Virus record (IMG/VR): IMGVR_UViG_3300027969_000116
Span: 1 to 58,594 of that record
Direction: 5' to 3' (one strand)
DNA: 58,594 nt
DNA from: a virus
Part shown: piece by piece, positions 38,181 to 56,296 of the stretch
How positions within the stretch are numbered: the first letter of the stretch is position 1
How the letters are laid out: each line of letters opens with the position of its first letter
Notes under the pieces: generated by a model
The model's input: only the letters and a program-made list of their open reading frames with translations
What the model was told of the DNA's origin: nothing
Databases searched by the model: none
Program-made: the position numbers and the translations under genes

Positions 38181-38216
38181 AAAAACCCCTCCGTTAAAGA
38201 GGGGTTATTTTTTTTT
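38181..38216. terminator. Bidirectional terminator between convergent genes
   Basis: AACCCCTC (38184-38191) pairs with GAGGGGTT (38199-38206) over a 7-base loop. It is flanked by an A tract on the left and a long T tract on the right, so it can end both the plus-strand adhesin transcript and the minus-strand fibre/RuvC transcript. The RuvC stop codon lies in the T tract. Confidence 0.88.
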
Positions 38217-38814
38217 ACCAAATTTCTTCTTGTCTCATATGACCTAAGACACAACAATAAGCGTCTGTTTGGTCGAAGTTTTCTTTTTTTAGAGTATTGT
38301 TTCTTGTGTATTGCCAAGTGATTTGAGGTTCTTTCTTGGCGATTAAGTCCCATATGATTAGTTTCTTATCAATGTCTTTTGGTAGACCACCAAATAAAAC
38401 AAACTTACCTTTATCATTTTCTTTAACTAATTCAGGGAAGGCGAACTTACGAGAGTTATATGTCGATATGAAGTCAGGAACCACCCCTAAAACATCGTAA
38501 ATTTCTTTTGTGACTAATGTGTTAAACCTTAATAAAGTTTGGACTGTATAGACGTTATTTGAGTTTAATAGAGGTTCCTCAATAATAACCTTAGTGATAC
38601 CCATATCTTTGTACTCTAAAAGTTTGGTTCTAAAGATTTCACCTTTAAGAAGTAACTCTTTCATTTTATTTTCTTCCTTTGGTTTTGGTGTTGGTGAAAC
38701 GTGAGTTAATTCTAATAATTCTCTACTTTGTATGTCAAATAATGCCCAACCAATAGTTTTGGTGGAAACATCAAGCCCTAAAACTTTAGGGCTTTCCTTT
38801 AATGTTTTTTTCAT
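38215..38814 (-). CDS. RuvC-like Holliday-junction resolvase
   Basis: A 199-residue RNase H-fold nuclease. Asp15 sits in VLGLDVSTKTIGWALFD, the hallmark first strand of RuvC. Glu79/Glu80 lie in KVIIEEPLL on the fourth strand, and Asp181/Asp184 in FDQTDAYC on the last helix complete the acidic set. T4 itself uses endonuclease VII for this job; phages of other groups use RuvC-type enzymes. It is the last gene of the minus-strand block and follows the 810-residue fibre gene by three bases, so a DNA-processing gene is transcribed with adhesin genes. Likely role: resolving recombination junctions before packaging. The possibility that it is an RNase H-fold nuclease with another substrate remains. 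Confidence 0.8.
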   Translation of the reverse strand: MKKTLKESPKVLGLDVSTKTIGWALFDIQSRELLELTHVSPTPKPKEENKMKELLLKGEIFRTKLLEYKDMGITKVIIEEPLLNSNNVYTVQTLLRFNTLVTKEIYDVLGVVPDFISTYNSRKFAFPELVKENDKGKFVLFGGLPKDIDKKLIIWDLIAKKEPQITWQYTRNNTLKKENFDQTDAYCCVLGHMRQEEIW

Positions 38815-38817
38815 AGG

Positions 38818-41250
38818 TTAAAAATCAAATTTTACTAAAAACTGTTGAAGTCCCTGTCTTTGTACAGGTGATTGTAGCTTTGATACAATCATAAGATTAA
38901 ATTCATTGTCGTAAAGACCAATTTCTGAAATATACGGTAAGATACCTTGAGACCAACTTGGATTTGATGAATTTTGGAATTCAGCTTGACCAAGATTTAT
39001 TTTGTATCTCATTTCATAAATTGTTGCTTGAATGTCAGTTTCTAGTGACCCATAGAAATAATATTCATCACCAAAATTAAGTGTTTGTCCTGTTTGATTT
39101 AAGGTTGGTAATGAAATAAAACTACTTAAAATATAAGGGGGTGCACTAACATATAAATCATCTGTGATTACAAATGTGTTTGATGTTAAACCACTTTGAG
39201 TAATATATCCGTTAATAGTAGTTGCACTTAATTGATTAGTAAAATTAATTATCTTCCATCCGTTTGATTCAGGTCTTCCACCGTCCTCAACTAGTTGACA
39301 AATTATTTGAAATGTATTTGCAACAAATCCATTTGCGAGTGTATTACCCGTGATTTGTTTTAAACAATTAAATTCTGAACCAAATCTAACCGCAACATTT
39401 TGAGACCCCGGTGTCCCACAATCTACGTTTGGACCAATTATACTTGAATAGTAGTTACAATGTAATGATTTAGTTGCTCCTGATGATGTGTTAGTTAACA
39501 AATAACTAACATACATTGTTTGATTAGTTCCGGACAATACACCCTTAAAACTTGATTGGTTTATACCACAACTATTAGGTACAACTAATGATGTTGTTGC
39601 TGCCGGTAAAGTCCAGTTACGGTTTGATTTGTATGATAGTGAGGCGATTAATTCTTCATCATCAATTACAATAATTTTTTGGTCAGGGAATACCTTACCT
39701 ACAGGATTAGGTAATCCGTTAGCACCGCTTGGATGTGTATCGTATAAATAATAATAACGAATACCCGGTACATTCATATCACTATTTTTAGTTGATTTGA
39801 TATAGTGAGGTTCAAATAGTAATGTTGTAGTTATCTTAAAGTTGTCTTGAGGTGGAACAACATAAAATGTTTCACCATAACAACATTCAGGGTTTTTGTG
39901 CCACATTAACCAAGGTAAGTGTAATTTAAAGTTTCTAGCGTCACCGGTAATATCTTCAGCAATTGTACCACTGATAGGTTGTTCTAATGCAAATTTTTCA
40001 CCATAGAAAAAATCAATTGTGTTATTTGTATAGTGAATAATAGCGATAGCTTTTTGTTCTTCAGGGGTCACGACAATCTTATTATTTAATGAATCGTAAT
40101 AAAACACAGAATCTTCAATGAGACCATCCATATCTGTGAAAGTTTGACCACTACTAGTCATATAACCTAAGTATTCTTTAGTCCCAATATATGATTTAGA
40201 CCCAAATGATTTATAACCTTGTACCGCATTATTTCCTGTTTCAACTAAACCTGCTGGATTTTCTGACCAAGGAATATTCATATTCCAAACTTTAACATCA
40301 AACTCGTCTGTATTACATATTGATTCAAAATTAATTACATCTGTGTTCCAATGTTGTGTCGGAGTAATACTATCATATAAATCCGCCATATTTGGTGGAT
40401 AAATTAATGTTCTTGCGTAAGTACACGCTGATAATATATATGAATAGTTTGGTGTTACTCTATCTAATGTTATTACATTTAAACAAATATCTACAATTCT
40501 GTAAGTTAAAATATTAAAACAACTATTAACATTTACAAAAGTATTAACCACCGGTGTTGGAGTACACCCAGTTGGGGTTGGAACACAACAAGTTGAGGAT
40601 GGTGTAGGTGTTGGGTTAGGAGGTAGACACGCATCATATGATGGTGTAGGTGTTGGAGTTGGAGTAGATGTTGGTGTAACAGGAATAGGTTCAGTACTAC
40701 AAGAAATTGTATTACCGTCAAAATAAATTGTAATTAAATCACCTTTAGCGGGTAATCTAACAATATTTGCGTTACAACCTGAGTAAATTATTTTAATTTG
40801 TGTTCCACCTGTAACTGTCGATATGTCAACAACATAGTTGGAGTTTATAACATATTCACTATCAGTATACGCACTCCAAGATGATGTAACTGATGAAGAA
40901 TCACCACTAAAAAATCCTCTCATTGTGGCTCTATTATAGATTGGTGCGACAGTTGGTGCTGAAAATGGGATACCATAAGTATTATTACTATTTGAATCTA
41001 CGTAAATAGGGTATTTAACATTTTGTTTATTTAATTGACCCGGTGCCGAATTTTGAGAGTTAAAATTTGGTTCTAATATATTGGTATTTGCAATGTTATA
41101 AGATGTTCCGGTTAGGGTATTATACGAGACTTCACTATCACCTATTTGGAAATATGAAATATTAAAATTACCTTGAGATAGTTTTAATCTAGCCGTATCG
41201 GTTAATCTTGTACTAATTAATGCTGATGTATTTTTAACTATGTATGCCAT
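38818..41250 (-). CDS. Fibre/collar-like baseplate protein (810 aa) with short Thr-Pro linkers
   Basis: An 810-residue structural protein. The N-terminus (LISTRLTDTARLKLSQGNFN, then ISYFQIGDSEVSYN) resembles the N-terminal attachment domain of P2 gpH-type tail-collar fibres. The C-terminus resembles the end of the same domain family (PYISEIGLYDNEFNLMIVSK), so the two halves appear to enclose inserted modules. Residues about 190-235 are short Thr-Pro linkers broken by Cys-containing segments (YDACLPP, TCCVPTPTGC). The middle is unassigned beta structure. It is the first gene behind a TATTTATA element on the minus strand and is followed by ruvC. Inferred role: adaptor between baseplate and fibres. 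Confidence 0.6.
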   Translation of the reverse strand: MAYIVKNTSALISTRLTDTARLKLSQGNFNISYFQIGDSEVSYNTLTGTSYNIANTNILEPNFNSQNSAPGQLNKQNVKYPIYVDSNSNNTYGIPFSAPTVAPIYNRATMRGFFSGDSSSVTSSWSAYTDSEYVINSNYVVDISTVTGGTQIKIIYSGCNANIVRLPAKGDLITIYFDGNTISCSTEPIPVTPTSTPTPTPTPSYDACLPPNPTPTPSSTCCVPTPTGCTPTPVVNTFVNVNSCFNILTYRIVDICLNVITLDRVTPNYSYILSACTYARTLIYPPNMADLYDSITPTQHWNTDVINFESICNTDEFDVKVWNMNIPWSENPAGLVETGNNAVQGYKSFGSKSYIGTKEYLGYMTSSGQTFTDMDGLIEDSVFYYDSLNNKIVVTPEEQKAIAIIHYTNNTIDFFYGEKFALEQPISGTIAEDITGDARNFKLHLPWLMWHKNPECCYGETFYVVPPQDNFKITTTLLFEPHYIKSTKNSDMNVPGIRYYYLYDTHPSGANGLPNPVGKVFPDQKIIVIDDEELIASLSYKSNRNWTLPAATTSLVVPNSCGINQSSFKGVLSGTNQTMYVSYLLTNTSSGATKSLHCNYYSSIIGPNVDCGTPGSQNVAVRFGSEFNCLKQITGNTLANGFVANTFQIICQLVEDGGRPESNGWKIINFTNQLSATTINGYITQSGLTSNTFVITDDLYVSAPPYILSSFISLPTLNQTGQTLNFGDEYYFYGSLETDIQATIYEMRYKINLGQAEFQNSSNPSWSQGILPYISEIGLYDNEFNLMIVSKLQSPVQRQGLQQFLVKFDF
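40549..40682 (-). repeat. Thr-Pro linker-coding repeats (minus orientation)
   Basis: GGTGTAGGTGTTGG-type repeats on the plus strand encode short PTPTPTP segments of the 810-residue protein, interrupted by Cys codons. They are inverted relative to the stalk repeats at 36808-37100. Confidence 0.8.
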
Positions 41251-41254
41251 ACTA

Positions 41255-41262
41255 TATAAATA
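41255..41262 (-). promoter_or_regulatory. TATTTATA element upstream of the 810-aa gene
   Basis: On the minus strand the sequence reads GAATATTTATATAGTATGG, with TATTTATA ending four bases before the start codon at 41250. This is the same geometry as at 18285, 30069 and 45570 on the other strand. Confidence 0.45.
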
Positions 41263-41277
41263 TTCTTTTTTTTATTA

Positions 41278-42573
41278 TTAGTTAATTTTTATTGAACAAC
41301 AATTACATCCGCTAATAACCGCATTACCAATTGAAAAGGTATCGTTACTATATCCGACAACACATTTTCCGGTTGTTGTTTTATCAACTCTAGATGTTGT
41401 GTTTATTGTAATTGTATCATTATTGGTTATTGTTAATGAACTCCAAATATTATTAATGTCTGACTGATAAATAAATTCAGTTTGACAACCGGCTGCGGTG
41501 TTTACTGATGTTGTATTACCTGTTACCGTGCTATCTATATTTATGTCAGTTGTATTTTTTGTTAATATAGTTCCTGTAGTTAAAATTGATGTTCCACTTG
41601 TCGGTGATGAATAAAAACTATTAGTACGGATTAAATCAAATGTTATTGTTGCTCCATTAGGTAGTGGTGGTGTTACAACTACATTTGTTACAAATTCATT
41701 AACTGTTGAAATTTCATTATTTATTGGTGTTGTTGTTGTTGTACTTAATGAAATACTATATGTGGTTAATTGTTGAGCACTTTTAATAGTTTCAGTACTA
41801 TAATGAGTATTACCTAATGAATCAAGTACTACTAAACTATAAATTCCGCTACATAAATTTGTAAAAATAGAGGATGGAGAATAAGTAACACCATTATCTA
41901 TCGAATAACTAAATGGAGGATTTTCTAAATCAACGTTAAATATAATACTACCATCACATAGACAAGTAGGGTCATTTACGCTTTTGTTAATATTACGGAT
42001 ATATGTTTCAAAACAATCACCTATTTTAAGTGTTATATCATCTAATGGTCTCCCACCAATAGGACTCCAATTTAATGGTGGATTTGAGTCACTTGGGTCA
42101 TTTGATAGAATAGTGTTACCTAAAACACTAAAGTTATTTATTATCCATTTATTTAAATCCCAAGTTATTGTTATTGGTGGACTTGGAACAGGTGGTGTGT
42201 CGGAAATCCAAGAAGGGTATCCATTAAAAATTCCGTTTGGTATAAAATGTTGACTTTCAATAACATCATTTCTTGTTCCAGCTCTTGGTCTAAATGACAA
42301 ACAAAATGATTTATAATCAATTGTGGTTGGTGTCGCAATTGTTACAATGTTACCACAATATTCGTTAACAACAACTATTGAACCGGGTATACCTGTTGTT
42401 TCTATTGTTACACCGGCAAGTAATATATCTCGGTCTATATTTTCCGCATTAGTTAATGATGGGTAACGCAAGGGTATAGTTCCATTAACTTGATTAAGGT
42501 AAATTGTATATGGGCCGGGCGATGTTGTTCCGGGTACTAATGTTATTGTATAGTAATATTTTGTTGTACTCAT
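41278..42573 (-). CDS. Adhesin-like surface protein (431 aa) with one SprB-like repeat
   Basis: A 431-residue Thr/Ile/Asn-rich protein. The N-terminal 60 residues contain GPYTIYLNQVNG, a variant of a module recurring at the start of neighbouring surface proteins (GPFDIYLNSD, YPYDIYVCD, TPFNVYLCD). Around residues 205-255, CDGSIIFNVDLENPPFSYSI, then FTNLCSGIYSLVVLDSLGN, is one SprB-like repeat. A Thr-rich stretch (TTTTTPINNE) follows. The end is Cys-rich (SGCNCCSIKIN). It lies downstream of the 743-residue gene with a two-base gap, in a run of adhesin-like genes. Function as a fibre or baseplate decoration is inferred; no catalytic motif was seen. Confidence 0.6.
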   Translation of the reverse strand: MSTTKYYYTITLVPGTTSPGPYTIYLNQVNGTIPLRYPSLTNAENIDRDILLAGVTIETTGIPGSIVVVNEYCGNIVTIATPTTIDYKSFCLSFRPRAGTRNDVIESQHFIPNGIFNGYPSWISDTPPVPSPPITITWDLNKWIINNFSVLGNTILSNDPSDSNPPLNWSPIGGRPLDDITLKIGDCFETYIRNINKSVNDPTCLCDGSIIFNVDLENPPFSYSIDNGVTYSPSSIFTNLCSGIYSLVVLDSLGNTHYSTETIKSAQQLTTYSISLSTTTTTPINNEISTVNEFVTNVVVTPPLPNGATITFDLIRTNSFYSSPTSGTSILTTGTILTKNTTDINIDSTVTGNTTSVNTAAGCQTEFIYQSDINNIWSSLTITNNDTITINTTSRVDKTTTGKCVVGYSNDTFSIGNAVISGCNCCSIKIN

Positions 42574-42575
42574 AA

Positions 42576-44807
42576 TTATCCGATTATATATGTTGATGAT
42601 GAATATGTAACATTTCCACCTGAATATCTGTATGCTAAAATTGCGTTATTAAAATTAGTGTTTGCACTATAATTAACTATGGGTGCTGACCATATTTCAA
42701 AATCATTAAGGTTGAGTGCTCTAATATAATAATTGTATAAATAATCTGTATTATAAAAAGAGTTGTAATCCGTATATCGAATACCTAAAGTATTATAATT
42801 ACATAATGTTCCCGAAAAAGAAGGTATTAATGTATTACTTACTCCGGAAAATGGGATAGTATTTGTAGTCCATTGATTAGTTTCCAATAAACCCGCAATA
42901 GTATTTGCTGATACACTTTGAACAGAAATGGTCACTCCTTGACACCAATAAAACGGGTTGGTATAATAAACTCCAAAATTTAAAGTATTAGCAGTATAAC
43001 GAAATTCTCTATCAATGTATCCTAAATTTTCGGTTCTACCAGTTGAATAATCATTAGTCCTGTTAACAAATGCGTCGGTTAGTCTAAGACAATCAATGTC
43101 ACAAGATGTTACTGATGAAAAATTATTAGATATAGTTTCAGCGGTTATTCTAAAGTAATAACTACCACTACTTGTTAAACCAGTTGTTACTGTTGAAGAT
43201 GGGTGAATATATATTACTTGAGTACTTACGTTTTCTAAACAATTATTAGACGTATTTTGAGATGGTATTTTACAAAAAAAATTTCGATAATACAATATGT
43301 TTGTTGTTGATGAACTACCTGAATAGTTACTTTTAAGAAAATTCCAACTATTATAATATGCTGATATTACAGTTGATGAACCCGTTATATTATAAACACC
43401 TTTTGACCCAACACCACCAACAAAAGTTTTTTCATATTTTACATTATTTGTGTCAGTTGCACAATTACTTGTTGTATTATAGAAAGTTGTATCAGCACAT
43501 ACATTTTGATTAATATAAAAATCTGTAGATTGAAAATTGACAGGATTACTGGTTGGATTTGAAAGTGATATACCAAAAGGATTGCGAGAATTTGAGGGAG
43601 CTTGATATGTAGGAAAATTGCTGTTGGGGGTTGCATAATATTTAAATAAATCACTTAATTCATAATCTGAGGTATTACAACCTGAAATTGAAAATGTTAT
43701 TTTATTTGAACAACCACTATTCGTATTAACAATACTTGACCCAATTATTTTATATGGATTGGTTAGTAAACAACTTGTACAATCATAGTTAGTTAAACAA
43801 GTTGAGAACAATTCCCATACAGTATCATTAAATGCTGGTGTAATGGTAATTAAAATATTGTCATCATTATTCACAGTTAGACCTGTTAAACAAGTTAACT
43901 TAACGAATGGACTAGCTGTTGCCGCTGATTTAGGAAAAGTAGTCGCACTAAAATTATTTGCATTATTAGGTGATGAATTATTATAACCAACCACAAAATC
44001 CTCTAATACAAGATTATTGGTTCCATATGAACTACCACTAAATTTAATTGTAATTCTGTCAGGGTTTTGTGACCCCAGAAATCTCCAAGCAAAAAATTTA
44101 GTTGATGAGGATATTTTATATGTTAAATTAACAGGTGTTGGTACATTCCCATTAAGAAACTTATAGTCTATAAAATGGTTATAATAGAGTTGGTAGCTAA
44201 AATTAGTTCTATTACTACACGACAATGGTTGTATAATTGTTGAAGGTAAACAATTACCACTAAATAATACGTTACCAGTACCACCCGTATTTGAGAAAGT
44301 TATACCGCTTAATTTAATCTTTTGAATAACCGGAGTATAAACACCTTCGGTTACAGGTTTTGCATTAATACCTGTGAAAGGATGAGGAATCATACCTAAG
44401 GTAAGGAAACTACCTGCACCTGATGTAAATTCTAATGTTGTAGTATTATTAGGACCATACCAATTTATTACATAATCATTAATATTATTACAAGTACCTG
44501 TTAAAATACCACAAGATAATTTTGTGATTGTCGTTGAGGAATATTGAGATAAACCTAAATTACAATTACTACATATGTCATTATTTTGAATTGGTATATC
44601 CAAACAAAAATTCTCTATAGTATCTTTAAACCCTAAACTAGTTGTTCCTGTTGGTACAACAATAACATAAGGACAAGTTGTTAATTGAACAAGTGTTGCG
44701 GAAGAAAATGGTGTTGATGTATAATCACTATTTAAATAGATATCAAACGGCCCATTTGAGGCATTTGTTAATGATATACAGGTTGATGCTGAAAATGTTG
44801 CTGGCAT
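42576..44807 (-). CDS. Cys-rich surface/fibre protein (743 aa)
   Basis: A 743-residue Asn/Ser/Thr-rich protein with many cysteines spaced along the chain (for example CSNCNLG, CTSCLLTN and CDIDCLR), which could form zinc or disulfide knots once outside the cell. The N-terminus has the recurring module GPFDIYLNSDYTSTPF, then PYVIVVPTGTTSLGF. The rest is strand-rich and shows no family I know. It is encoded between the 220- and 431-residue genes with 7- and 2-base gaps, all minus strand. Like its neighbours it is probably part of the host-contacting apparatus of the tail. Confidence 0.6.
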   Translation of the reverse strand: MPATFSASTCISLTNASNGPFDIYLNSDYTSTPFSSATLVQLTTCPYVIVVPTGTTSLGFKDTIENFCLDIPIQNNDICSNCNLGLSQYSSTTITKLSCGILTGTCNNINDYVINWYGPNNTTTLEFTSGAGSFLTLGMIPHPFTGINAKPVTEGVYTPVIQKIKLSGITFSNTGGTGNVLFSGNCLPSTIIQPLSCSNRTNFSYQLYYNHFIDYKFLNGNVPTPVNLTYKISSSTKFFAWRFLGSQNPDRITIKFSGSSYGTNNLVLEDFVVGYNNSSPNNANNFSATTFPKSAATASPFVKLTCLTGLTVNNDDNILITITPAFNDTVWELFSTCLTNYDCTSCLLTNPYKIIGSSIVNTNSGCSNKITFSISGCNTSDYELSDLFKYYATPNSNFPTYQAPSNSRNPFGISLSNPTSNPVNFQSTDFYINQNVCADTTFYNTTSNCATDTNNVKYEKTFVGGVGSKGVYNITGSSTVISAYYNSWNFLKSNYSGSSSTTNILYYRNFFCKIPSQNTSNNCLENVSTQVIYIHPSSTVTTGLTSSGSYYFRITAETISNNFSSVTSCDIDCLRLTDAFVNRTNDYSTGRTENLGYIDREFRYTANTLNFGVYYTNPFYWCQGVTISVQSVSANTIAGLLETNQWTTNTIPFSGVSNTLIPSFSGTLCNYNTLGIRYTDYNSFYNTDYLYNYYIRALNLNDFEIWSAPIVNYSANTNFNNAILAYRYSGGNVTYSSSTYIIG

Positions 44808-44814
44808 ATATTTT

Positions 44815-45477
44815 TTAAGTTAAATCAAATGTGTATCCTGACATAGCAGTTGGAAGACAGTTATTAATATCTTGTTCCACAACAGTCACGTTAAATGTAC
44901 AATCCGGTGCGATGTATAATTCACAAACTGTGGTTGCTGTAAAATCCCCCCAATAATCGACTGTGGTTGCACTATAAAAACCATTACCTATACCACCAAG
45001 GGCTGGTGACTCATTACTGTTGTTATTACCCCAAGTCCAAGTTGTTGTATATGGAGGAGTTCCTCCTGTAATAATTAATGATACTTCACCATCATAAGAA
45101 TCTGAAGTTGTAGCTGCTGAAGTAACACATTGAATACCCACCGGTAAAATTGTTACTATTCCACATTCATTTTTATATCCAACAATAGTTGGTGTAGTTA
45201 CAACAGGTGGTGTATAACAAGGATAAATGTATTTTGTACATAATTCACAATCAAAAGCTGAAAAAACAGGTGTACCAATTCTAAAATCGTATCCTAAATT
45301 TATGGTTGAATTACCACTATATGATACACAACCTGAATAAGAACCAATAACCAACCCATATTGTGTTCCGACAGTTGGTATAAATCCTACCCAAGATGGT
45401 GTAGTTGTTGCACTTGCAATTGCAAAAGGTTCTAAACCACCACAACACGGATTAAAATAATGGATAATATCGCTCAT
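44815..45477 (-). CDS. Cys-rich surface protein with SprB-like repeat (220 aa)
   Basis: A 220-residue protein, first gene of a minus-strand adhesin unit. It begins with FNPCCGGLEPFAIASATTTP and a Gly/Ser-rich segment, followed by CELCTKYIYPCYTPP. The residues from about 125 to 185 hold one SprB-like repeat (DGEVSLIITGGTPPYTTTWTW, with G-FYSATTVD further on). Its start is 19 bases downstream of a TATTTATT element. The N-terminal half resembles the other Cys-rich parts of this block, which suggests that the proteins are assembled from shared modules. Function is inferred from context. Confidence 0.6.
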   Translation of the reverse strand: MSDIIHYFNPCCGGLEPFAIASATTTPSWVGFIPTVGTQYGLVIGSYSGCVSYSGNSTINLGYDFRIGTPVFSAFDCELCTKYIYPCYTPPVVTTPTIVGYKNECGIVTILPVGIQCVTSAATTSDSYDGEVSLIITGGTPPYTTTWTWGNNNSNESPALGGIGNGFYSATTVDYWGDFTATTVCELYIAPDCTFNVTVVEQDINNCLPTAMSGYTFDLT

Positions 45478-45496
45478 ATTATATTTCTTTTTTTAT

Positions 45497-45504
45497 AATA
45501 AATA
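45497..45504 (-). promoter_or_regulatory. TATTTATT element upstream of the 220-aa gene
   Basis: On the minus strand GATTATTTATTATAAAAAAAG precedes the start at 45477 by 19 bases. It heads the transcription unit that covers the three Cys-rich surface proteins. One mismatch to TATTTATA. Confidence 0.3.
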
Positions 45505-45569
45505 ATCTAAACTTTGATTTTATTAAAATATAATTGACATTTGTTTTTAATAAATGATGTGTTGGGAGA

Positions 45570-45577
45570 TATTTATA
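45570..45577 (+). promoter_or_regulatory. TATTTATA element upstream of a lone plus-strand gene
   Basis: GAGATATTTATAGGTATGAA places TATTTATA three bases before ATG 45581. The element's orientation agrees with the only plus-strand gene inside a minus-strand block, which argues that it belongs to the gene rather than being background. Confidence 0.45.
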
Positions 45578-45580
45578 GGT

Positions 45581-45763
45581 ATGAAACTAATAAATACAAT
45601 ATCAAATGTTGTTACGGAAGCCAAAGAAGCTTATGAACTTGCGTGTGACAGAGGTGTTCCTGAGAAGGAACTTGATAGATTAGAAAAAAACTACTATGAG
45701 TCTTTAAAACTTCTAAGGATATATGAAAATTTGGGTAAGAGAGAAAATAAACAATCTCAATAA
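45581..45763 (+). CDS. Small helical protein, unknown (60 aa)
   Basis: A 60-residue, highly charged protein predicted to be mainly helix (SNVVTEAKEAYELACDRGVP, then EKELDRLEKNYYESLKLLRI), possibly a coiled coil. It is the only plus-strand gene between 38.2 and 53.4 kb. An earlier in-frame ATG (45554) exists, but ATG 45581 follows the TATTTATA element by three bases and starts the charged helix, so it is preferred. No family is recognised. It might be a regulator or a small interaction partner, but neither is shown by the sequence. The reading frame has normal codon use for this genome. Confidence 0.55.
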   Translation: MKLINTISNVVTEAKEAYELACDRGVPEKELDRLEKNYYESLKLLRIYENLGKRENKQSQ

Positions 45764-45784
45764 AGATTATCGTAAATATATTGA

Positions 45785-46462
45785 CTACAATCCAAATCTT
45801 CCTTTTGTTGCGTTATAGTTTTGTAATACTTCTTGAGATGAAAGAGTTCTGTTATATAGTCTAAAAAGATAGGCTGAATAAGAAGTTCCATTTGCATAGC
45901 TGATAGAGTTAAAGGCTGGTAGGTAATTATGATAATCACTTGCGGATTGAGTAACCTTCAATATACCATCTACATACAATTTAAAGGTTGTTGTGGTTGT
46001 ATACTCTGTCGTGATAGTGTAGTGGTGTAGCCCTCTGTTAGTATACCAGTTGTAGCCTGTCAAGTATCTATAGGCGTTAAAATCTGTTGATGTTCCACAA
46101 ACAAAAATACTATTGTCATTTGAAATATGAAATGATACGTTTTGCCCACCGTAAGCCGCAGTTCCTTTAATTAAATTATTTATGGTATTAGTTAAGTTGC
46201 TTGTATCAAAAATAAAATCATATGTAAAATTACTTGTAGTTTGTATGTTGTTTGTTCCAACGTAATCATTTACACCATCCAAAATAATTGCTCCACCCCT
46301 AGCAGAACTAAAAGTAGGACCATTTATAAGTTCTCCATTATTTCCACCACTAGATAAATCATTCCATATAGTAGAACCACTCACATATGATTTTGTGTTG
46401 GCTGCATCTAAATACAAAATCAACCCATCTGTCACTACTCTATTTAATATTTTTCCTGACAT
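45785..46462 (-). CDS. LamG/concanavalin-like lectin fibre protein, paralogue 1
   Basis: A 225-residue protein with a LamG-3 type beta-sandwich, a carbohydrate-binding fold. Typical parts are GLILYLDAANTKSYVSG, WNDLSSGGNNGELING, GGAIILDGVNDYVG, a central HHYTITTEYTTTTTFKLYVDG (strand and turn) and the end LFRLYNRTLSSQEVLQNYNA. Two similar genes lie at 46464 and 47420; the ends are nearly the same and the middles differ. The final KGRFGL is shared by all three in similar form. It is the last of the array and is separated from the next gene upstream by one base. Likely a receptor-binding or spare adhesin. Confidence 0.8.
   Translation of the reverse strand: MSGKILNRVVTDGLILYLDAANTKSYVSGSTIWNDLSSGGNNGELINGPTFSSARGGAIILDGVNDYVGTNNIQTTSNFTYDFIFDTSNLTNTINNLIKGTAAYGGQNVSFHISNDNSIFVCGTSTDFNAYRYLTGYNWYTNRGLHHYTITTEYTTTTTFKLYVDGILKVTQSASDYHNYLPAFNSISYANGTSYSAYLFRLYNRTLSSQEVLQNYNATKGRFGL
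46351..46431 (-). repeat. Conserved 5' segment of LamG paralogue 1
   Basis: About 80 bases coding the segment around WNDLSS to the N-terminus. It is almost the same as 47058-47138 (about eight differences) and similar to 47972-48052. The conserved block is a likely recombination site between the lectin genes. Confidence 0.75.
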
Positions 46463-46463
46463 T

Positions 46464-47171
46464 TTATAAACCGTATCTTGTTCTTGTTGCGTTATAATTT
46501 TGTAATACTTCTACATCTGTTAGTGCTCGATTATATACTTTAACATTTGAAATATTCCCACTCCATACTTCGTTAGATATTGCTTGATTTCCTCCTATTC
46601 TGATATCTACTGCTGTGTTAGGGGTTGGGTATAAAGGTGTAAAAATTCCTGATTGGGGTTGGTTATTTACGTAAATTGTTACACTAGGTGAACTAATACT
46701 TCCTGAAACTGTAACTGCAAAGAAATACCACGTATTTGCGTTAATTGTTAAAGTTCCGAAGGATTGAAATTCTCCAGAAGCATTACTGGTATAGTATTTT
46801 ACAATTCCACCATCTACTCGAAGTAATGAATAGATATTCCCCCCAACAACATTTCCATATATTCCGTACAATGTTTTAAATCCAGTAATAGTATTTGGTT
46901 TAGCCCAAACATTTATTGTTAGGGGTACCTGTAACCCTGTTAATGATGATGGGGTTCCTAAAGTTACATAATCATCCACATTATCAAATACAATACTACC
47001 ACCATTCCCACTATTAAAAGTTGGCCCGTTAGTTAAAATTCCATTATTTCCAATTCTAGATAAATCATTCCATATAGTATTTCCACTCACATATGATTTT
47101 GTGTTGGCAGCATCTAAATACAACACCAATCCATCCGTTACGATATTTCCACCACCTTCCGCTGTACTCAT
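46464..47171 (-). CDS. LamG/concanavalin-like lectin fibre protein, paralogue 2
   Basis: A 235-residue LamG-type protein. The start (IVTDGLVLYLDAANTKSYVS) and end (YNRALTDVEVLQNYNA, then TRTRYGL) match the neighbouring paralogues, whereas the central part is different (LTGLQVPLTINVWAKPNTIT, then GFKTLYGIYGNV), with the classic LamG signature of strand, W, and a later FFAVTVSGS. The sheet-forming residues VTIYVNNQPQSG and VDIRIGGNQAISNEVWSGNI are typical of glycan-binding LamG domains. It follows the small 85-residue gene with a one-base gap. Likely role: sugar recognition on the host surface. Confidence 0.82.
   Translation of the reverse strand: MSTAEGGGNIVTDGLVLYLDAANTKSYVSGNTIWNDLSRIGNNGILTNGPTFNSGNGGSIVFDNVDDYVTLGTPSSLTGLQVPLTINVWAKPNTITGFKTLYGIYGNVVGGNIYSLLRVDGGIVKYYTSNASGEFQSFGTLTINANTWYFFAVTVSGSISSPSVTIYVNNQPQSGIFTPLYPTPNTAVDIRIGGNQAISNEVWSGNISNVKVYNRALTDVEVLQNYNATRTRYGL
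47058..47138 (-). repeat. Conserved 5' segment of LamG paralogue 2
   Basis: Second copy of the approximately 80-base segment described at 46351-46431. Its best match is the first copy, suggesting a recent duplication or gene conversion between paralogues 1 and 2. Confidence 0.75.
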
Positions 47172-47172
47172 A

Positions 47173-47430
47173 TTATTCCATTGGCATATCTTGAGACCAT
47201 TCTGATGTTGAAAGAATTATTACTATTTCTTCATAAGTATAAGGACCTTCTTTAGTTGTTAAGTTTTCAACACTTGTAGGTATTCCTTCACCATCCCATT
47301 TAACAAATGTTTTGGTCTCATCTACTGATTTTCTTACAGTATCGATTGATGTTTCACATACTTGTGTGAAATCTATTTGATTTAATTCAGTTACACTGAA
47401 TATCATAAAATGTCTGTTGTTATAATCCAT
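47173..47430 (-). CDS. Small acidic protein inserted between LamG genes, possibly a fibre assembly factor
   Basis: An 85-residue acidic protein between two LamG paralogues. Its core reads FSVTELNQIDFTQVCETSID, then TVRKSVDETKTFVKWDGE and GPYTYEEIVIILSTSEWSQD, a compact alpha/beta pattern with no membrane segment. Two starts are possible: ATG 47430, which overlaps the upstream LamG gene by 11 bases, or ATG 47406 (MIFSVTELNQ), which lies 12 bases past that gene's stop. Small proteins encoded next to fibre genes often are chaperones or caps, but nothing in the sequence proves this. The gene interrupts the otherwise tandem lectin array, so its retention suggests that it is used with one of the lectins. 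Confidence 0.6.
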   Translation of the reverse strand: MDYNNRHFMIFSVTELNQIDFTQVCETSIDTVRKSVDETKTFVKWDGEGIPTSVENLTTKEGPYTYEEIVIILSTSEWSQDMPME

Positions 47431-48082
47431 ATCTTCCTTTAGTTGCGTTATAGTTTTGTAGTATTTCTTGTGCTGTTAACATTCTATTATATAACGTATT
47501 AATAGAAATATCACCCACAAAATGAAAATTATCCGAAATATTTCTACCTATTCTAAATAAATTTGGGTTACCAATCATAATGCCAATATTAAGTGTGGTA
47601 ATTAATGTTGAATTTACATATATATTTGCAACACTACCTGAAATACACGCAACAGCATTGTACCATCTATTTATACTTAGTGTATAGTCTATTATGTAAT
47701 CTAATACACTTCCTAAGGTAAATGTTAATTTTGAACCATTTATTTGAAGTCTATATCCATCATTAGTGTTTGAATCGTGTGAAAATATAACATTATAAAC
47801 ACCTATTGTAGTTGGTTTAAACCAACAAGACATTGTGGTACCACTATTAGCATTGTATGTATTAACCAAATTACTTACATAACCTACGGTACCATTAAAA
47901 GTAACTGAACCTAAATTATTTGTATTATAATTAGTAACACCACTTATTACATTACATACAGTTTGATTACGAGTTAAATCATTCCAAGTAGTACTTCCAC
48001 TTACTATTGATTTTGTGTTGGCGGCGTCCAAATAAAAAACCAACCCATCCGTTACTACTCTTGGTGAAAAATTAAAAGCCAT
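47420..48082 (-). CDS. LamG/concanavalin-like lectin fibre protein, paralogue 3
   Basis: A 220-residue LamG-type protein with the same framework: VVTDGLVFYLDAANTKSIVS at the start, VTFNGTVGYVSNLVN, a central TTMSCWFKPTTIGVYNVIFS strand pair, then NRWYNAVACISGSVANIYVN and the end LYNRMLTAQEILQNYNATKG. It is the first of the three lectin genes in transcription order and is three bases downstream of the beta-helical fibre gene, to whose tip the lectins might attach. Its central part shares little with the other two. Conserved ends with divergent middles imply diversification of the binding face. Confidence 0.82.
   Translation of the reverse strand: MAFNFSPRVVTDGLVFYLDAANTKSIVSGSTTWNDLTRNQTVCNVISGVTNYNTNNLGSVTFNGTVGYVSNLVNTYNANSGTTMSCWFKPTTIGVYNVIFSHDSNTNDGYRLQINGSKLTFTLGSVLDYIIDYTLSINRWYNAVACISGSVANIYVNSTLITTLNIGIMIGNPNLFRIGRNISDNFHFVGDISINTLYNRMLTAQEILQNYNATKGRYGL
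47972..48052 (-). repeat. Conserved 5' segment of LamG paralogue 3
   Basis: Third, more diverged copy of the segment described at 46351-46431. It retains the stretch GATTTTGTGTTGGC and the downstream CCATCCGTTAC (plus-strand reading), which are shared with the other copies. Confidence 0.7.
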
Positions 48083-48085
48083 AAC

Positions 48086-49951
48086 TTATATTGCTCGTAT
48101 TATTGTTTTTAAAATCCAACCCGATGTGGTAGCGGACACTCTTATTAATGTGTTATTTCCTGATAAGGCCGTTGAAAAGGTAATACCTGAGGTACTTCCG
48201 ATATTGTTGGTTGAAACCTCTGTAAACTCTGTTGTCCCGGTTGTCCAAATAGACATTATATTACCAGCTCTAGCACTTGTATTACCTGAATTTATTACGG
48301 TATAATCTATAAACGCACCCGTGTAAGCACTTGTAGGTATTGAATAGATTGTATTTGTACCGGCAGTTAGACTTATTCTTACGGTAGTATTTAATGATGG
48401 TGCTAAATAACTACCCATTAACATTGTATTATCAGAAAACACTTCTACAATAGGTAACCCCGAAATATCATTTACACTAAATAATGAACCCACAAGACTA
48501 TCTGATACGCTAAATAATTCACCATTTGAACCCAACACACTGAAAATAGGTGAAGTTGTTGAATTACCTGAACCAACTACCGTAACTATACTTTGACCTG
48601 TACCTGAAAAAGTTCCTGTTATTGCAGATAAACTACCATTAAATTTAGCATCTCCATTATCATTAAAAAAAATATTTTCAGTATTACCACTATTTAAAAT
48701 TGAAAACGCTTTTGAACCTAAATTAAGTCTGGAATTTTTAATAGTAAATCTTGAATTATCCGTGTTTAAACCACCAATATTAAATGACCCAGCTTCGGTA
48801 ATTCTGAAAGTTTCAACCGTAGTACCACCTACAACAGTTGTCCCAAAAAGTTCAGGTCTCGCACTAGTATTATTTTGGAAATATAACCCACATCTAACAT
48901 TACCATAATTAAGAGTAGCCGCTTGAATACCTGATATTGCACCACTTGTGAAAGTTTGCATAAATGTGATAATGTTTCGATTAGAAACATTTGGACCATA
49001 ACTTGTACTTCCATCACCATTTATATAAATTCCGGGAGTTGTTGGTTGAAAAGCACCATAAGCTGTAGCACCTGTGTTGATAAAAATACCACCAGCTTTA
49101 TTGATTCTAAAAAACTCATTATCATTAACATCTTTTAGATTTAAAATATAGTCTGTTGTTGCCGATAATTTAATATCCAACATAGCGATTGGAGTTGCAG
49201 TATTAATACCTGTACCTGAAAAACTATCATAAATTAAACTATTAGTTAATGTTGTTCCGGATGTAAATTTAGGTATATAATTAGTTGTTCCGGTAATAAC
49301 AGGTGGTGGTAAATTTTGATATGTTGTTGCCGATATTGTATTAGCACTTAAACCATTTGTGAATATTGTTGGTCCTGTAACAGTACCTCCTGTAAATATA
49401 CTACCACTACCTGTTTGGAATATCCTCCAATTCGAGTTAGCACTTGTATACCCACTAACGCCTTCTATATTGGAACTTGTCCACCCACTTATAAATGATT
49501 GTCCGGCAGATGAACGACTATTAACAACGGTTGTATAATCAGAATAAGTTACGGCAGAAAATCCTGTAAGACCGGTTATATTATTCCATAATGTGTCATA
49601 ATTTGGTATTACATATTGATAAACTTTATCTGTTTCGTGAACATATACCATCATACCCAGTCTTCTTCTACCTGAAGAAATATTGTCAGAATTTAATGTT
49701 AGATAATCCGGAGATAAAAATGTTCCATTACCTTTTGTATATCGAATAGGGATTGTATTAGCAGATAATTGAATTAACGATGGATATGATGTTGCGGTTA
49801 AAGTTAACGACAAATCGGATAGGTTATATACTTCCATATAACCTCCAACATTAAGATTAGAAAAATTAGTTCCAAAAACAGATGTTCTTGAAACGGATTG
49901 TGGCGTTGATACTTGAACGCTTGATATTGGATTTTTATAAGGTACTGCCAT
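48086..49951 (-). CDS. Beta-helical tail fibre protein (621 aa)
   Basis: A 621-residue Ser/Thr/Gly-rich fibre. The N-terminal 200 residues probably form the attachment part. From about 225, TNYIPKFTSGTTLTNSLIYD, then GTGINTATPIAMLDIKLSAT, is the repeated pattern of long trimeric phage and Bacteroidota fibres that often end in an endosialidase-type chaperone. Here no such S74 peptidase ending (no catalytic Ser-Lys region) is found; the C-terminus is a beta domain (FIDYTVINSGNTSARAGNIM). A TATTTATT element stands just upstream of the start (49955-49962), and the lectin genes follow. Likely role: shaft that carries the adhesins. Confidence 0.72.
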   Translation of the reverse strand: MAVPYKNPISSVQVSTPQSVSRTSVFGTNFSNLNVGGYMEVYNLSDLSLTLTATSYPSLIQLSANTIPIRYTKGNGTFLSPDYLTLNSDNISSGRRRLGMMVYVHETDKVYQYVIPNYDTLWNNITGLTGFSAVTYSDYTTVVNSRSSAGQSFISGWTSSNIEGVSGYTSANSNWRIFQTGSGSIFTGGTVTGPTIFTNGLSANTISATTYQNLPPPVITGTTNYIPKFTSGTTLTNSLIYDSFSGTGINTATPIAMLDIKLSATTDYILNLKDVNDNEFFRINKAGGIFINTGATAYGAFQPTTPGIYINGDGSTSYGPNVSNRNIITFMQTFTSGAISGIQAATLNYGNVRCGLYFQNNTSARPELFGTTVVGGTTVETFRITEAGSFNIGGLNTDNSRFTIKNSRLNLGSKAFSILNSGNTENIFFNDNGDAKFNGSLSAITGTFSGTGQSIVTVVGSGNSTTSPIFSVLGSNGELFSVSDSLVGSLFSVNDISGLPIVEVFSDNTMLMGSYLAPSLNTTVRISLTAGTNTIYSIPTSAYTGAFIDYTVINSGNTSARAGNIMSIWTTGTTEFTEVSTNNIGSTSGITFSTALSGNNTLIRVSATTSGWILKTIIRAI

Positions 49952-49954
49952 AAT

Positions 49955-49962
49955 AATAAATA
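49955..49962 (-). promoter_or_regulatory. TATTTATT element upstream of the beta-helical fibre gene
   Basis: On the minus strand ATAATATTTATTATTATGGC gives TATTTATT three bases before the start at 49951. It occupies nearly all of the 11-base gap between two genes, and its spacing to ATG matches the copies at 18285, 30069 and 45570. Confidence 0.4.
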
Positions 49963-51687
49963 TTATGTTTTAGTATTTCCTTTAAAGAATATTGAAGAGG
50001 ATAAAGATGGTGGTGGAACCGAACTTGGTATTAAACAAGATGGGTCAATCCAAAGAACTCGATATACGTTTGATGGTATTGCGGCTCCACTTGAAACAAC
50101 TACATTCGCAGCAACCAATATAGTATCAGGTATTGCGTTATAAACGACATCAGTTGAACAAGGTGTGTTATAACCAATATCTACCGTCATATTATTCATA
50201 CTACCACCAACAGCGTTTAATGGAATCCAAAGTGTATAGAAATATTGAATACCGGTATTAACTTGTGACGGTGAAAGTTCAATAGTGTTAAAAGTATATT
50301 GGTCTTGTGAACATCCAAAAGTGTCTGTCGTTGTACCTGAGGTTTGTTTAATATATCCTTTTAATGTTGAAACATTAGTTACAAAATTTCCACTACCTCC
50401 GGTAAATCCTGAGTAATGGATATAGACATTTAAATTGTTTGAATAACCACTAATTGATGGAACACCACCATTACCCCAACCTAAGAAACTAGTGGAACCA
50501 CTACTAAACATATAGTTACCTAAATTAGTTAATGAAGTGGTATCTTGTGGTTCAGGAACTAAATAAACGTATGGGTCAAACACATATGGATATGTGGATG
50601 TTGGAGTTATTGTTGGAGTTATTGTTGGTGTTGGAGTATATGATGCGGTAATACTTGGGGTTGGTGTGTTTGACGGTGTTAAACTAATAGTTGGTGTAAT
50701 ACTTGGTGTTATTGTAGGTGTTATACTAGGGGTTGGTGTAGGTGTTACGTCTATAGCACAACTAACATCCGATGATGCCGCGTAAATACCTGAAATTGTT
50801 GTTTGAACTAATGTAAATGTTGATGTTGATATATTATCAAGACGATAAACCTTACCTGTTGAATATTCAAAAAGGTAAAGATTATTATTTTTTGATGATA
50901 ATCCATATACACCTGTAATTGATGGGTTAAGAGTTACATCATATTCAAGAGTTCCGGTGGTATAATCATATTGAGTTAAATATACGTTACCTCCACCAAC
51001 ATTTGAAACAAATAATTTATCTGTTAATGGAAAATAAAATAAATCACCACTAAGTATTCTACCGGTTCCGGGTAATGAAAATTTATTAGTTATTGTTGGA
51101 ATTGTGGTTGATATATTTACCTCAACAACAATATAGGATGAACCAACTGTTGCTCCGGTTATTGTTGAAATTAAAACATTCTCGTCTTTAACACATAATC
51201 CTGATAAAGGTTTTGACGGGTATAATATTCTATTATAAATTGCGACAAATGGTGTTGGGTTAATATAATATTCTGTAATTTCTTGAGGGTTATTAATGTC
51301 TGTAATCCAAAATTTATTACTATTGTTTGCAATATCACTAATTGATGGTAATGATGGAAACGTTAAAAGAGTTAACGTATTAGTGTCAATGTTATACTTA
51401 AATATATCCGTACCACCTGTGGTAACATAACTAGAACAATCAATAATAACAGGTGCAATATTAATACAATCAATAACTCTAAATCGTTCACATCCGTCTG
51501 ATGTTATAATTTTAATTCCGACAGCGGGTGCCATATCAAAAGGGGGAGGTAACACAATTTCTACTGATGCGGGAACCGGTGTATTAATTTGCGCGATATA
51601 ACCACAATTATTTCCATAGACATCACATACGTAAATATCGTATGGATAAGTTAAACCTGTGATACTATTTAGGATTATTGATGTCAT
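49963..51687 (-). CDS. Adhesin with propeller-like domain and Thr-Pro stalk (574 aa)
   Basis: A 574-residue surface protein. Residues 1-75 are the recurring module (LNSITGLTYPYDIYVCDVYG, then VGIKIITSDGCERF). Residues about 95-310 show repeating strand units (FKYNIDTNTLTLLTFPSLPS, KLFVSNVGGGNVYLTQYDY, GVYGLSSKNNNLYLFEYSTG) typical of a beta-propeller. A Thr-Pro/Ile-Thr-Pro stalk follows (about 313-365), and the C-terminal 200 residues form a separate Gly/Ser-rich beta domain. The pattern matches a modular adhesin with a binding head on each side of the stalk. It lies three bases after the 499-residue adhesin gene. No enzyme motif was seen. Receptor binding is inferred. Confidence 0.65.
   Translation of the reverse strand: MTSIILNSITGLTYPYDIYVCDVYGNNCGYIAQINTPVPASVEIVLPPPFDMAPAVGIKIITSDGCERFRVIDCINIAPVIIDCSSYVTTGGTDIFKYNIDTNTLTLLTFPSLPSISDIANNSNKFWITDINNPQEITEYYINPTPFVAIYNRILYPSKPLSGLCVKDENVLISTITGATVGSSYIVVEVNISTTIPTITNKFSLPGTGRILSGDLFYFPLTDKLFVSNVGGGNVYLTQYDYTTGTLEYDVTLNPSITGVYGLSSKNNNLYLFEYSTGKVYRLDNISTSTFTLVQTTISGIYAASSDVSCAIDVTPTPTPSITPTITPSITPTISLTPSNTPTPSITASYTPTPTITPTITPTSTYPYVFDPYVYLVPEPQDTTSLTNLGNYMFSSGSTSFLGWGNGGVPSISGYSNNLNVYIHYSGFTGGSGNFVTNVSTLKGYIKQTSGTTTDTFGCSQDQYTFNTIELSPSQVNTGIQYFYTLWIPLNAVGGSMNNMTVDIGYNTPCSTDVVYNAIPDTILVAANVVVSSGAAIPSNVYRVLWIDPSCLIPSSVPPPSLSSSIFFKGNTKT
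50591..50750 (-). repeat. Thr-Pro stalk-coding repeat of the 574-aa adhesin
   Basis: GTTGGTGTTATTGTAGG-type repeats on the plus strand encode alternating TPTPSITPTI units. It is one of several homologous repeat tracts in this block and is inverted relative to 36808-37100. Confidence 0.8.
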
Positions 51688-51690
51688 ATG

Positions 51691-53190
51691 TTAACAAAGA
51701 ACTACTAAACCTGTTGAAGTGGTGTTAACGTTAATATATGCCCAAGGTAAAGCTGTAGAGCCAAAACCACCGTAAGATAATGATACGGTAACTGAAGCAG
51801 GATTTGACGGACCACAATAACCTGTATATGGTCCTCCAATACCAACATTAAAATCGATGTAAGTGCCGGGACCACCTGTTCCGTTAGTTGTGATGTAAAC
51901 GTCGTATGTAACACCAGGAGACCAAACATTATTTAAAGTTGCATCCATAATATAAGTAAGATAACCTGGATTGGCTGCGATTGAACTACGTCGATAGCAA
52001 CTGTTAGGTGTTCCTTGTATTTTCCACCAATAATAAAATAATACACTAAATTGATTTGTTTGTTTTATAGAACTTACACCTCTACCTTGTGTTGTTGTAA
52101 CATTTGTTGGGTTACAAATATCTGTTGAACTACTTGATGATGGTGTCATTGTTGGTGTTAGAGTAGGCGTTTTTGTAGGTGTTTTAGTTTGAGTAGGTGT
52201 TACAGGTGGTGTCGAACCAACAGTAGATGTTGGTGTCTGTGTTGGTGTTTTAGTCATTGTTGGTGTCTGTGTTGGTGTTTTTGTTGGTGTTGATGTATGT
52301 GTCGGTGTCATACTAGGAGTTGGTTTAACAATATTCTGACATTCAATACAAGCACCTTCATCATAACTATAACCATAAGGTCCTGTAGTAATATTAATTG
52401 TATTTATATTTCCGTAGTCATAATCCATACCAAGATAAAATATACATCTTGAGTCCGTAACACCATTATTATTAACTGTGGCTCCAACTACTAAAAAGAG
52501 TTCAAAAATATATCCTATTGGTATTCCTGTGACATTACTACAATAGTAAAAATCACCATTATAGCAATCTTGGAATTTTAAAACACCCGGACAAATTATT
52601 TGACCTGTGATAGCTGAGAATATTGCAAATCCTGAACCATCACAGTTTCTAGCGATGTCCTTTGAATAGAAAAGTCGTCTACTAAAACTATTTGAATCAA
52701 ATTCTGTAGGTGTTACAGTTGGAGTTGGTGTTGGTGTAGGTGTATAAGTATAACCACTGGCATCAATACCAATAATCGAACAAAAATTAGTCGCACTTGG
52801 TGTAACAGTTTTTGTTGGCGTAACCGTTTTTGTTGGGCTTGGTGTTGGTGTAGGTATAAATTCACAATCAAATAATGCGGTAAAATCTAACACATCACAA
52901 TTTTTTGTAGGTGTTGGTGTTGGAGTAAGACATATTCCGCTAAAAACATAAATGTTTGATAAATCAGGACAAGAACTAACACAAGGGTATTTTCCCGTTA
53001 AATAACAAGTACCACCAAGTGTATCAGATAAACACCAATAACTTGTTACTCCTGTATAATAGTATATAGTCCAACCACTTGTCTGACCCGTCCAGTAAGA
53101 ACGACCATTATAGGTTCCCCCCGTTATGTAGTTATCATCGGCACCTACTAATCCGGTATTTTTTATACAATATGTAGAACTACAAGGCAT
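51691..53190 (-). CDS. Modular Cys-rich adhesin with several Thr-Pro stalks (499 aa)
   Basis: A 499-residue protein of alternating small domains and Thr-Pro linkers. Residues about 20-75 contain GGTYNGRSYWTGQTSGWTIY, then WCLSDTLGGTCYLTGKYPC, a compact Trp/Gly/Cys module. Thr-Pro linkers follow near 88-95, 113-130, 150-163 and 290-352; between them are Cys-containing beat-like segments (FCSIIGIDASGYTY, CDGSGFAIFS). The last linker contains [14 protein letters not shown], homologous to that of the 1169-residue adhesin. The C-terminal 140 residues form a beta domain (TYDVYITTNGTGGPGTYIDF). It starts one base after the 73-residue module gene. Host binding is inferred from layout and neighbours. 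Confidence 0.65.
   Translation of the reverse strand: MPCSSTYCIKNTGLVGADDNYITGGTYNGRSYWTGQTSGWTIYYYTGVTSYWCLSDTLGGTCYLTGKYPCVSSCPDLSNIYVFSGICLTPTPTPTKNCDVLDFTALFDCEFIPTPTPSPTKTVTPTKTVTPSATNFCSIIGIDASGYTYTPTPTPTPTVTPTEFDSNSFSRRLFYSKDIARNCDGSGFAIFSAITGQIICPGVLKFQDCYNGDFYYCSNVTGIPIGYIFELFLVVGATVNNNGVTDSRCIFYLGMDYDYGNINTINITTGPYGYSYDEGACIECQNIVKPTPSMTPTHTSTPTKTPTQTPTMTKTPTQTPTSTVGSTPPVTPTQTKTPTKTPTLTPTMTPSSSSSTDICNPTNVTTTQGRGVSSIKQTNQFSVLFYYWWKIQGTPNSCYRRSSIAANPGYLTYIMDATLNNVWSPGVTYDVYITTNGTGGPGTYIDFNVGIGGPYTGYCGPSNPASVTVSLSYGGFGSTALPWAYINVNTTSTGLVVLC
52140..52325 (-). repeat. Thr-Pro stalk-coding repeat of the 499-aa adhesin
   Basis: Plus-strand GGTGTTTTTGTTGGTGTT-type repeats encode [16 protein letters not shown]. 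The central 52186-52224 stretch, read on the minus strand, aligns with 36922-36960 of the plus-strand adhesin at 32 of 39 positions, 12 of them consecutive at the end. Confidence 0.85.
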
Positions 53191-55293: not shown

Positions 55294-55509
55294 ATGGCGG
55301 ATTTATTAAAACCTCAAATTGATTTGAGAACACAACCTACATTAGTATGTGAGGGATGTGGAAGTATCTACTTCAAAGAAGTTGTTATGATTAAAAAAGT
55401 TAACAAATTGTTAACAGGAAGTCCGGAAGACACTATTGTTCCGTTCCCAACTTATCGATGTGACGATTGTGGTCACGTAAATGAGGAGTTTAAATTATTT
55501 GATAAGTAA
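55294..55509 (+). CDS. Small zinc-ribbon protein (71 aa)
   Basis: A 71-residue protein with two CxxC pairs: CEGCG at residues 19-23 and CDDCG at about 56-60, spaced as in zinc ribbons. The segment between them has strand-like parts (IYFKEVVMIKKVNKLLTG). It sits between the PD-(D/E)XK and gp47-like nucleases, one base apart from the latter's start, so it is likely part of the same recombination operon. Such mini-proteins may bind DNA, RNA polymerase or a nuclease partner; I cannot choose from the sequence. ATG 55294 follows an AT-rich leader. Confidence 0.65.
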   Translation: MADLLKPQIDLRTQPTLVCEGCGSIYFKEVVMIKKVNKLLTGSPEDTIVPFPTYRCDDCGHVNEEFKLFDK

Positions 55510-55510
55510 T

Positions 55511-56296
55511 ATGATTAAGAAACTAGTTCATTTTAGTGACTTACATATACGATTATTTAAAGACCACGACCTATACCGAGGTATTTTGAATAATATGTTG
55601 GAACAATTCAGAGAGATTGGTCCGGACAGGATTGTATTCACCGGAGATTTAGTACATTCCAAAAACCAAATGACACCCGAACTTATTGAGTTCGTGGCTT
55701 GGATTCTTACGGAATGTTCTCAGATTGCTAAAACCATTATTATAATTGGGAATCACGATTTTTTGGAATCCAACTCATCAAGATTGGATGCTCTAACACC
55801 GGTGATTGATTCATTAAAGAACGACAATATTGTTTATTTGAAGAACAGAGGTGAATACGAAGACGATAATGTTGATTGGGTGGTGTATTCATTACTTGAC
55901 CATAACATTCCACCTGAGATTGAAAAAACGGGTAGATTGAAGATTGGATTGTTTCACGGACCAGTTCAGGGATTAACAACTGATATTGGATACAAATTTG
56001 AAACCGGATTTGAAACCGATAAGTTTAACGGGTGTGATTTAGTTTTATGTGGAGATATTCACAAAAGACAAATTTTCAACATCCCGGGTGGTAAGAAAGC
56101 ATATATGGTTGGTTCAACAATCCAACAAAATTATGGTGAGACTATAACCAAACACGGATTCGGAATTTACAATTTAGAATCAGATGAATATTCATTTGTT
56201 GATTTGGATAATCCAAAACCTTTCCTATCATTTAAGATGAAATCATTTGATGATATAATAAATGGAACCGAGAAACTAGTTAATGGTGGAAATTAA
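55511..56296 (+). CDS. 47: gp47/SbcD/Mre11-like metallophosphoesterase nuclease
   Basis: A 261-residue phosphoesterase that with gp46 processes DNA ends. Metal ligands are visible: Asp10 and His12 (VHFSDLHIRL), Asp46 (FTGDLVHS), Asn81 and His82 (IIGNHDF), a later His in GLFHGPVQG and the Asp/His in LCGDIHKRQI. The usual SbcD/Mre11 length is above 330; this version stops after the nuclease core and a short cap, so the C-terminal coiled-coil-binding part of Mre11 is small. A longer frame begins at 55481, but ATG 55511 directly precedes the conserved first strand and avoids overlapping the zinc-ribbon gene, so it is preferred. The gene overlaps the next one by 14 bases. Confidence 0.88.
   Translation: MIKKLVHFSDLHIRLFKDHDLYRGILNNMLEQFREIGPDRIVFTGDLVHSKNQMTPELIEFVAWILTECSQIAKTIIIIGNHDFLESNSSRLDALTPVIDSLKNDNIVYLKNRGEYEDDNVDWVVYSLLDHNIPPEIEKTGRLKIGLFHGPVQGLTTDIGYKFETGFETDKFNGCDLVLCGDIHKRQIFNIPGGKKAYMVGSTIQQNYGETITKHGFGIYNLESDEYSFVDLDNPKPFLSFKMKSFDDIINGTEKLVNGGN

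Follow-up and report, generated by a model that had tools for sequence, protein, structure and literature searches.

The lectin region of the window is probably an array of exchangeable LamG host-recognition heads in a T4-like phage, accompanied by one small companion gene. The window, the whole stretch of viral DNA that we analyzed, comes from a T4-like virus and is a fragment of 58.6 kb. Its plus strand encodes baseplate wedge proteins and gp32-, UvsX-, and SbcD-like proteins. The Flavobacterium phage immuto group is represented among the annotated relatives of the window's gp6-like baseplate gene. The lectin genes lie in an island (38.2-53.2 kb) of mostly minus-strand genes that code largely for big, unmatched, structural-looking proteins. 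This strand-switched island (38215-53190; 15 kb) is situated beside the plus-strand T4-like structural region, and several of its large proteins contain Thr-Pro repeat linkers (TPTPTPT).

Three lectin genes, here called A, B, and C, are present in the island as open reading frames at exactly the positions listed in an earlier note on this DNA. In the order of transcription, lectin C is followed by an 85-codon gene (s85), lectin B, and lectin A (Table 1). Lectins B and A are separated by one base, and the start codon of s85 sits within the conserved end of lectin C (AGATATGGATTATAA).

Table 1. Lectin genes, their parts, the companion gene, and candidate recombination genes in the window
Feature	Position	Strand	Evidence or remark
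gp32-like single-strand binding protein	9985-10839	+	PF08804, E 1.2e-12
UvsX-like recombinase, proposed exchange agent	10932-11930	+	phrog_97, E 6.6e-14
RuvC-like Holliday junction resolvase, far end of the lectin island	38215-38814	-	phrog_159, E 1.5e-5
Lectin A gene	45785-46462	-	
Lectin A, conserved end	45785-45856	-	end comparison
Lectin A, variable middle (most diverged, without Pfam match)	45857-46264	-	whole gene phrog_24074, E 4.7e-20
Lectin A, conserved start	46265-46462	-	81-nt start comparison
Lectin B gene	46464-47171	-	
Lectin B, conserved end	46464-46535	-	end comparison
Lectin B, variable middle (LamG domain)	46536-46973	-	PF13385, E 2.8e-18, residues 64-222; AlphaFold model
Lectin B, conserved start	46974-47171	-	8 differences in 81 nt to A; codon excess
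85-aa companion gene s85, overlaps lectin C end by 11 nt	47173-47430	-	148 copies in 138/162 loci
Lectin C gene	47420-48082	-	
Lectin C, conserved end (about last 23 codons, ending LQNYNATKGRYGL, plus stop); holds s85 start codon	47420-47491	-	
Lectin C, variable middle (LamG domain)	47492-47884	-	Laminin_G_3 PF13385, E 8.1e-17
Lectin C, conserved start (about codons 1-66)	47885-48082	-	repeat family; 17/15 differences in 81 nt to A/B; family conservation profile
SbcD/gp47-like nuclease subunit	55481-56296	+	phrog_100, E 3e-29

Identity is spread unevenly along the three genes, confirming the pattern of fixed ends and variable middles that the earlier note had described. The 81-nt start segments differ at 8 (A and B), 17 (A and C), and 15 (B and C) positions; no other 81-mer in the island comes closer than 44 differences, and the minimum in simulated islands was 39. 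The 8 differences between A and B agree with that note, with the partner of 46351-46431 shifted by one base to 47057-47137 (offset 706). Over codons 11-40, amino acid identity reaches 75-95%, and in the last 60 nt of the genes 11-15 positions differ. In the middles, nucleotide identity is about 20-55% per 20-codon step and amino acid identity 0-44%; over the whole proteins, pairwise amino acid identity is 37-38%. The start pairs have more synonymous codons in common than expected from codon usage (30 versus 21.9, P = 0.009; 20 versus 14.6, P = 0.03; 23 versus 15.8, P = 0.006), modest evidence that the likeness of the window starts is due to more than protein constraint. No such excess was found in the window middles or in the ends (last 29 residues), and conservation of the window ends is partly at the protein level.

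Lectins B and C belong to the LamG family, and lectin A probably does. Against the Pfam Laminin_G_3 profile (PF13385; cut-off 27.6 bits), lectins B and C scored 66.9 and 62.2 bits, respectively. Lectin A has no Pfam match and has its PHROG (phrog_24074) and its ends in common with B and C. The AlphaFold model of lectin B (pLDDT 86.7) is a two-sheet concanavalin-A-like beta sandwich, and a fold search with this model returned 379 PDB chains at E <= 0.001; the chains listed all come from proteins that contain a concanavalin-A-like lectin domain. The Pfam LamG_3 domain starts at residue 62-76 in six relatives; thus, the variable middle corresponds in essence to the LamG domain, with the fixed start added N-terminal to it. 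The fixed end consists of the last strand and the C-terminal helix.

Relatives are numerous. Hundreds were found in viral contigs, and arrays of 2-12 copies are usual in environmental T4-like phages. In immuto, whose laboratory host is Flavobacterium sp. LMO8, the LamG genes lie beside a fibre-like gene, and the relatives in immuto and in cyanophage S-PM2 carry deposited annotations as (virion) structural proteins; this annotation, taken together with the fold, suggests that the LamG heads are located on the virion. Fold, position, and deposited annotation likewise point to putative binding of surface glycans by the heads. The arrays could instead decorate the virion or act as accessory domains in the degradation of cell surfaces, with the swapping of middles reflecting some other selection, and concanavalin-A-like folds are indeed also known as accessory domains of glycan hydrolases. 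We regard this explanation as unlikely because LamG genes adjoin fibre-like genes in immuto and because populations of marine phages typically show hypervariability in their host-recognition genes (PMC3909814).

The division into conserved and variable parts extends over the whole family. Among 281 distinct lectins from 162 loci, conservation is high in alignment columns 1-68 and 209-231 and low between them; one set of loci was retrieved by end motifs, which favors conserved ends in that set, and the loci retrieved with s85 are free of that bias. When nearest neighbors were sought for 255 lectins, the nearest neighbor came from the same array for 49 starts, 29 ends, and 17 middles, compared with 2.5 expected by chance. 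This indicates that the ends are homogenized inside arrays more than the middles.

Ordinary protein evolution could produce a similar profile if a LamG subfamily has its conserved core in the ends and its middles have diverged faster without any exchange. Consistent with this possibility, the ends are conserved at the protein level over hundreds of lectins, and the window genes show no codon excess in their last 29 residues. Comparison of related phages nevertheless gives a different picture. Records L005 and L006 are 100% identical over 7,821 nt, a stretch that contains two lectins and the small gene and extends into a third lectin through its start. In this third lectin the start is identical up to about nucleotide 191 of the gene, a middle of about 400 nt follows with only 38.5% nucleotide identity, and the end is again 100% identical. 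Not a single synonymous change is present in the start or the end, and the middles amid this identical stretch cannot be aligned, which argues against faster divergence of the middle. Both alleles were recovered a second time: that of L005 in record L170 from another metagenome (99.85% over 3,874 nt), and that of L006 in L168 from an independent metagenome (100% over 633 nt). Downstream, L168 and L170 are 99.97% identical over 2,979 nt. An assembly artefact was rejected as the source of the L005/L006 difference, since each allele is present in two independent metagenomes. The same pattern at lower identity was observed in two further pairs (L060/L063 and L076/L039), with starts at 90-95%, ends at 84-86%, and middles at 37-43% nucleotide identity.

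Inspection of related contigs for crossovers, as the earlier note had suggested, revealed hybrid lectins with breakpoints at codons 56-64, that is, at the end of the conserved start. The slot 1 lectin of L018 combines the start of L058 slot 1 with the middle of L058 slot 2 (breakpoint at codon 64), and that of L097 combines an L045-like start with the middle of L089 slot 2 (codon 56). A lectin of L067 follows L010 at its start (97%) and then L138 (100%), with the breakpoint at codon 62; its junction was not found in a second contig, and the case, coming from one contig and near its edge, is weaker evidence. In a three-parent test, none of 20,000 shuffles matched the signal for L067, L018, or L097, the permutation treating sites as independent. 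The L018 and L097 hybrids are old events, and their mimicry by assembly is unlikely. Sequence is also copied or shifted from slot to slot within an array, as seen in L018/L058 and in L096, where two lectins of a single array have middles that are 99% identical and ends that are both only 84% identical. In L067/L138, L097/L089, L018/L058, and L096 the starts are less alike than the middles, a relation that faster-evolving middles cannot yield. For the relatives, the swaps have therefore already refuted ordinary divergence without exchange, and we consider it improbable as the explanation of the arrays in general.

The proposal of the earlier note that heads are exchanged through their conserved ends thus holds by direct observation in relatives (L005/L006 together with L168/L170, the hybrids, L060/L063, L076/L039, and L096), and no recombinant with the window genes was found. 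A search of viral contigs for close relatives of the middles of A and C returned none, many records in the relative set being fragments. For the window's own array, we infer exchange from what is seen in these relatives.

Programmed diversification, by a diversity-generating retroelement, an invertible segment, or a site-specific system drawing cassettes from a silent archive of the genome itself, could also change a single gene at fixed boundaries in an otherwise identical stretch, as in L005/L006. We searched 14 records, including the window, L005, and L006, for the reverse transcriptase profile PF00078 and obtained no match, although positive controls were detected; neither a serine recombinase nor a clear tyrosine recombinase was found in the same records, the window and several others of which are fragments. 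The middle of the other record was absent elsewhere from both L005 and L006, which are possibly incomplete genomes; hence, the replacement came from another genome and not from a silent store. The replaced tracts are, moreover, whole and unrelated, not the product of adenine-directed substitutions. With no such enzyme in these records and no alternative segment in L005 or L006, retroelement diversification and invertible cassettes were rejected, and programmed diversity as a whole appears very improbable. The window itself contains just three lectin copies, all of them intact ORFs packed closely together, and nothing in it points to a silent archive. The description of the array as a store of alternative heads, put forward in the earlier note, is accordingly not supported in that wording: every copy is intact, and L005 and L006 lack each other's middle.

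T4-type phages recombine heavily, and the simplest account of the replacements is general homologous recombination through the fixed ends, presumably by a UvsX-type agent. One profile detected UvsX-like genes in 8 of the 14 records, some of which are fragments; L005 and L006 are among the records without a match. Each head has two fixed parts, a start of about 62 residues ahead of the Pfam domain and an end; both are probably needed for folding, docking, and assembly, and the LamG domain between them would bear the binding surface. Since these parts resemble each other from slot to slot and from one related phage to the next, the homologous recombination machinery could replace the middles, with the new middle donated by a co-infecting relative or by a neighboring slot. 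The product of such an exchange would keep its open reading frame, and the head would still dock. The RuvC-like gene at 38215-38814 shares the island with lectins whose relatives recombine. Elsewhere in the window, an Endonuclease VII/HNH-like gene (30065-30610, plus strand; phrog_1035, E 1.8e-26) lies between tail-region genes and is possibly a homing endonuclease.

Swapping of recognition domains is already known from other phages. In the tail-spike clusters of Ackermannviridae, recognition domains swap through conserved parts of the genes, and laboratory recombinants have been demonstrated (PMC11414711). These clusters resemble the window array in that several receptor-binding genes stand side by side; there, however, the N terminus is conserved, the C terminus is variable, and the tail spikes form a branched complex, whereas the window genes have about 225 codons, both ends fixed, a LamG domain, and a small companion gene. 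The T2-type gp38 adhesins (PMC12892980) are likewise adhesins of T4-like phages in which constant parts flank hypervariable recognition segments, but they are encoded by a single gene instead of an array and form a poly-glycine sandwich with loops that lacks a LamG domain. Marine phages have metaviromic islands (PMC3909814) that also contain lectin-like or carbohydrate-binding host-recognition genes that vary between related phages of one habitat; in the part of that report available, they are described as under-recruiting regions, and exchange of single domains between fixed ends in arrays is not described. LamG_3 lectin domains are also found on tail proteins of jumbo phages (PMC7824862). 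The cyanophages S-PM2 and S-SKS1 carry several LamG units inside long polypeptides, whereas in the window each unit is a separate gene. The literature that we searched, which did not include most subscription journals, holds only mentions of the domain with regard to LamG arrays in phages. The arrays described here differ from these systems in combining two fixed ends, exchange of a whole domain, multi-gene LamG arrays, and a dedicated, unnamed small gene. The replaced middles give a direct natural view of how a phage changes its recognition head: one domain gives way to another at fixed borders while the genome around it stays identical. Because the borders are fixed, exchange can be counted in metagenomes, in terms of alleles per slot, rate, and donors.

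The small gene s85 is a constant companion of the lectins. The earlier note rightly recognized the ORF and saw it as lodged between two array members; it is instead a conserved partner of LamG genes. When the 85-aa protein alone was used as a query, 80 loci were recovered, and in 79 of them a LamG gene lies within 2.5 kb; the remaining locus begins at a contig edge. The gene is usually present in a single copy, typically no more than 60 nt from the lectins on either side, and S-SKS1 also carries it beside its LamG units. Variants of greater length (110-115 aa) are found behind other groups of LamG genes, in L126, L158, and immuto. The long variants at L126:2595-2924, L126:4159-4503, L158:3462-3806, and L082:8742-9077 each stand behind a different LamG group.

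Profiling of 74 s85 members gave no Pfam or PHROG family beyond scattered weak matches. With a moderately confident structural model of s85, a PDB fold search returned nothing better than E 0.8, and matches in BFVD were only to unnamed or uncharacterized viral proteins. Neither profiles nor folds matched s85 to known families of tail-fibre assembly chaperones. The Pam3 tail-fibre chaperone gp25 (PMC9608196) is similarly a small gene beside recognition genes and serves as a working analogy only; unlike tail-fibre chaperones, s85 has no family match and no structural match in the PDB. Judged by its position and conservation, s85 most likely serves the heads as a chaperone in their assembly or as an adaptor, a proposal that we hold with roughly even confidence. 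In any case, s85 provides a marker for these arrays and a concrete target for studying how interchangeable heads attach.

A tentative extension, which we consider possible but doubtful, is a widespread plug-in platform for recognition among environmental T4-like phages, in which the constant start, the constant end, and s85 form a socket where heads are inserted and exchanged across phages, these heads being LamG domains and, in one array, perhaps a Fibrinogen_C-like domain (L158:331-1038). If so, s85 would be a novel type of general factor for assembling or attaching heads that can be interchanged. The head gene at L158:331-1038 has a Fibrinogen_C-like domain but an MGLNYGP leader like that of a LamG gene in L126, which suggests exchange of fold type. 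Finally, a search of genome contigs revealed a relative of s85 with 41% identity at a single locus, L165; the contig has been assigned to a Verrucomicrobia genome and perhaps derives from a misbinned phage.
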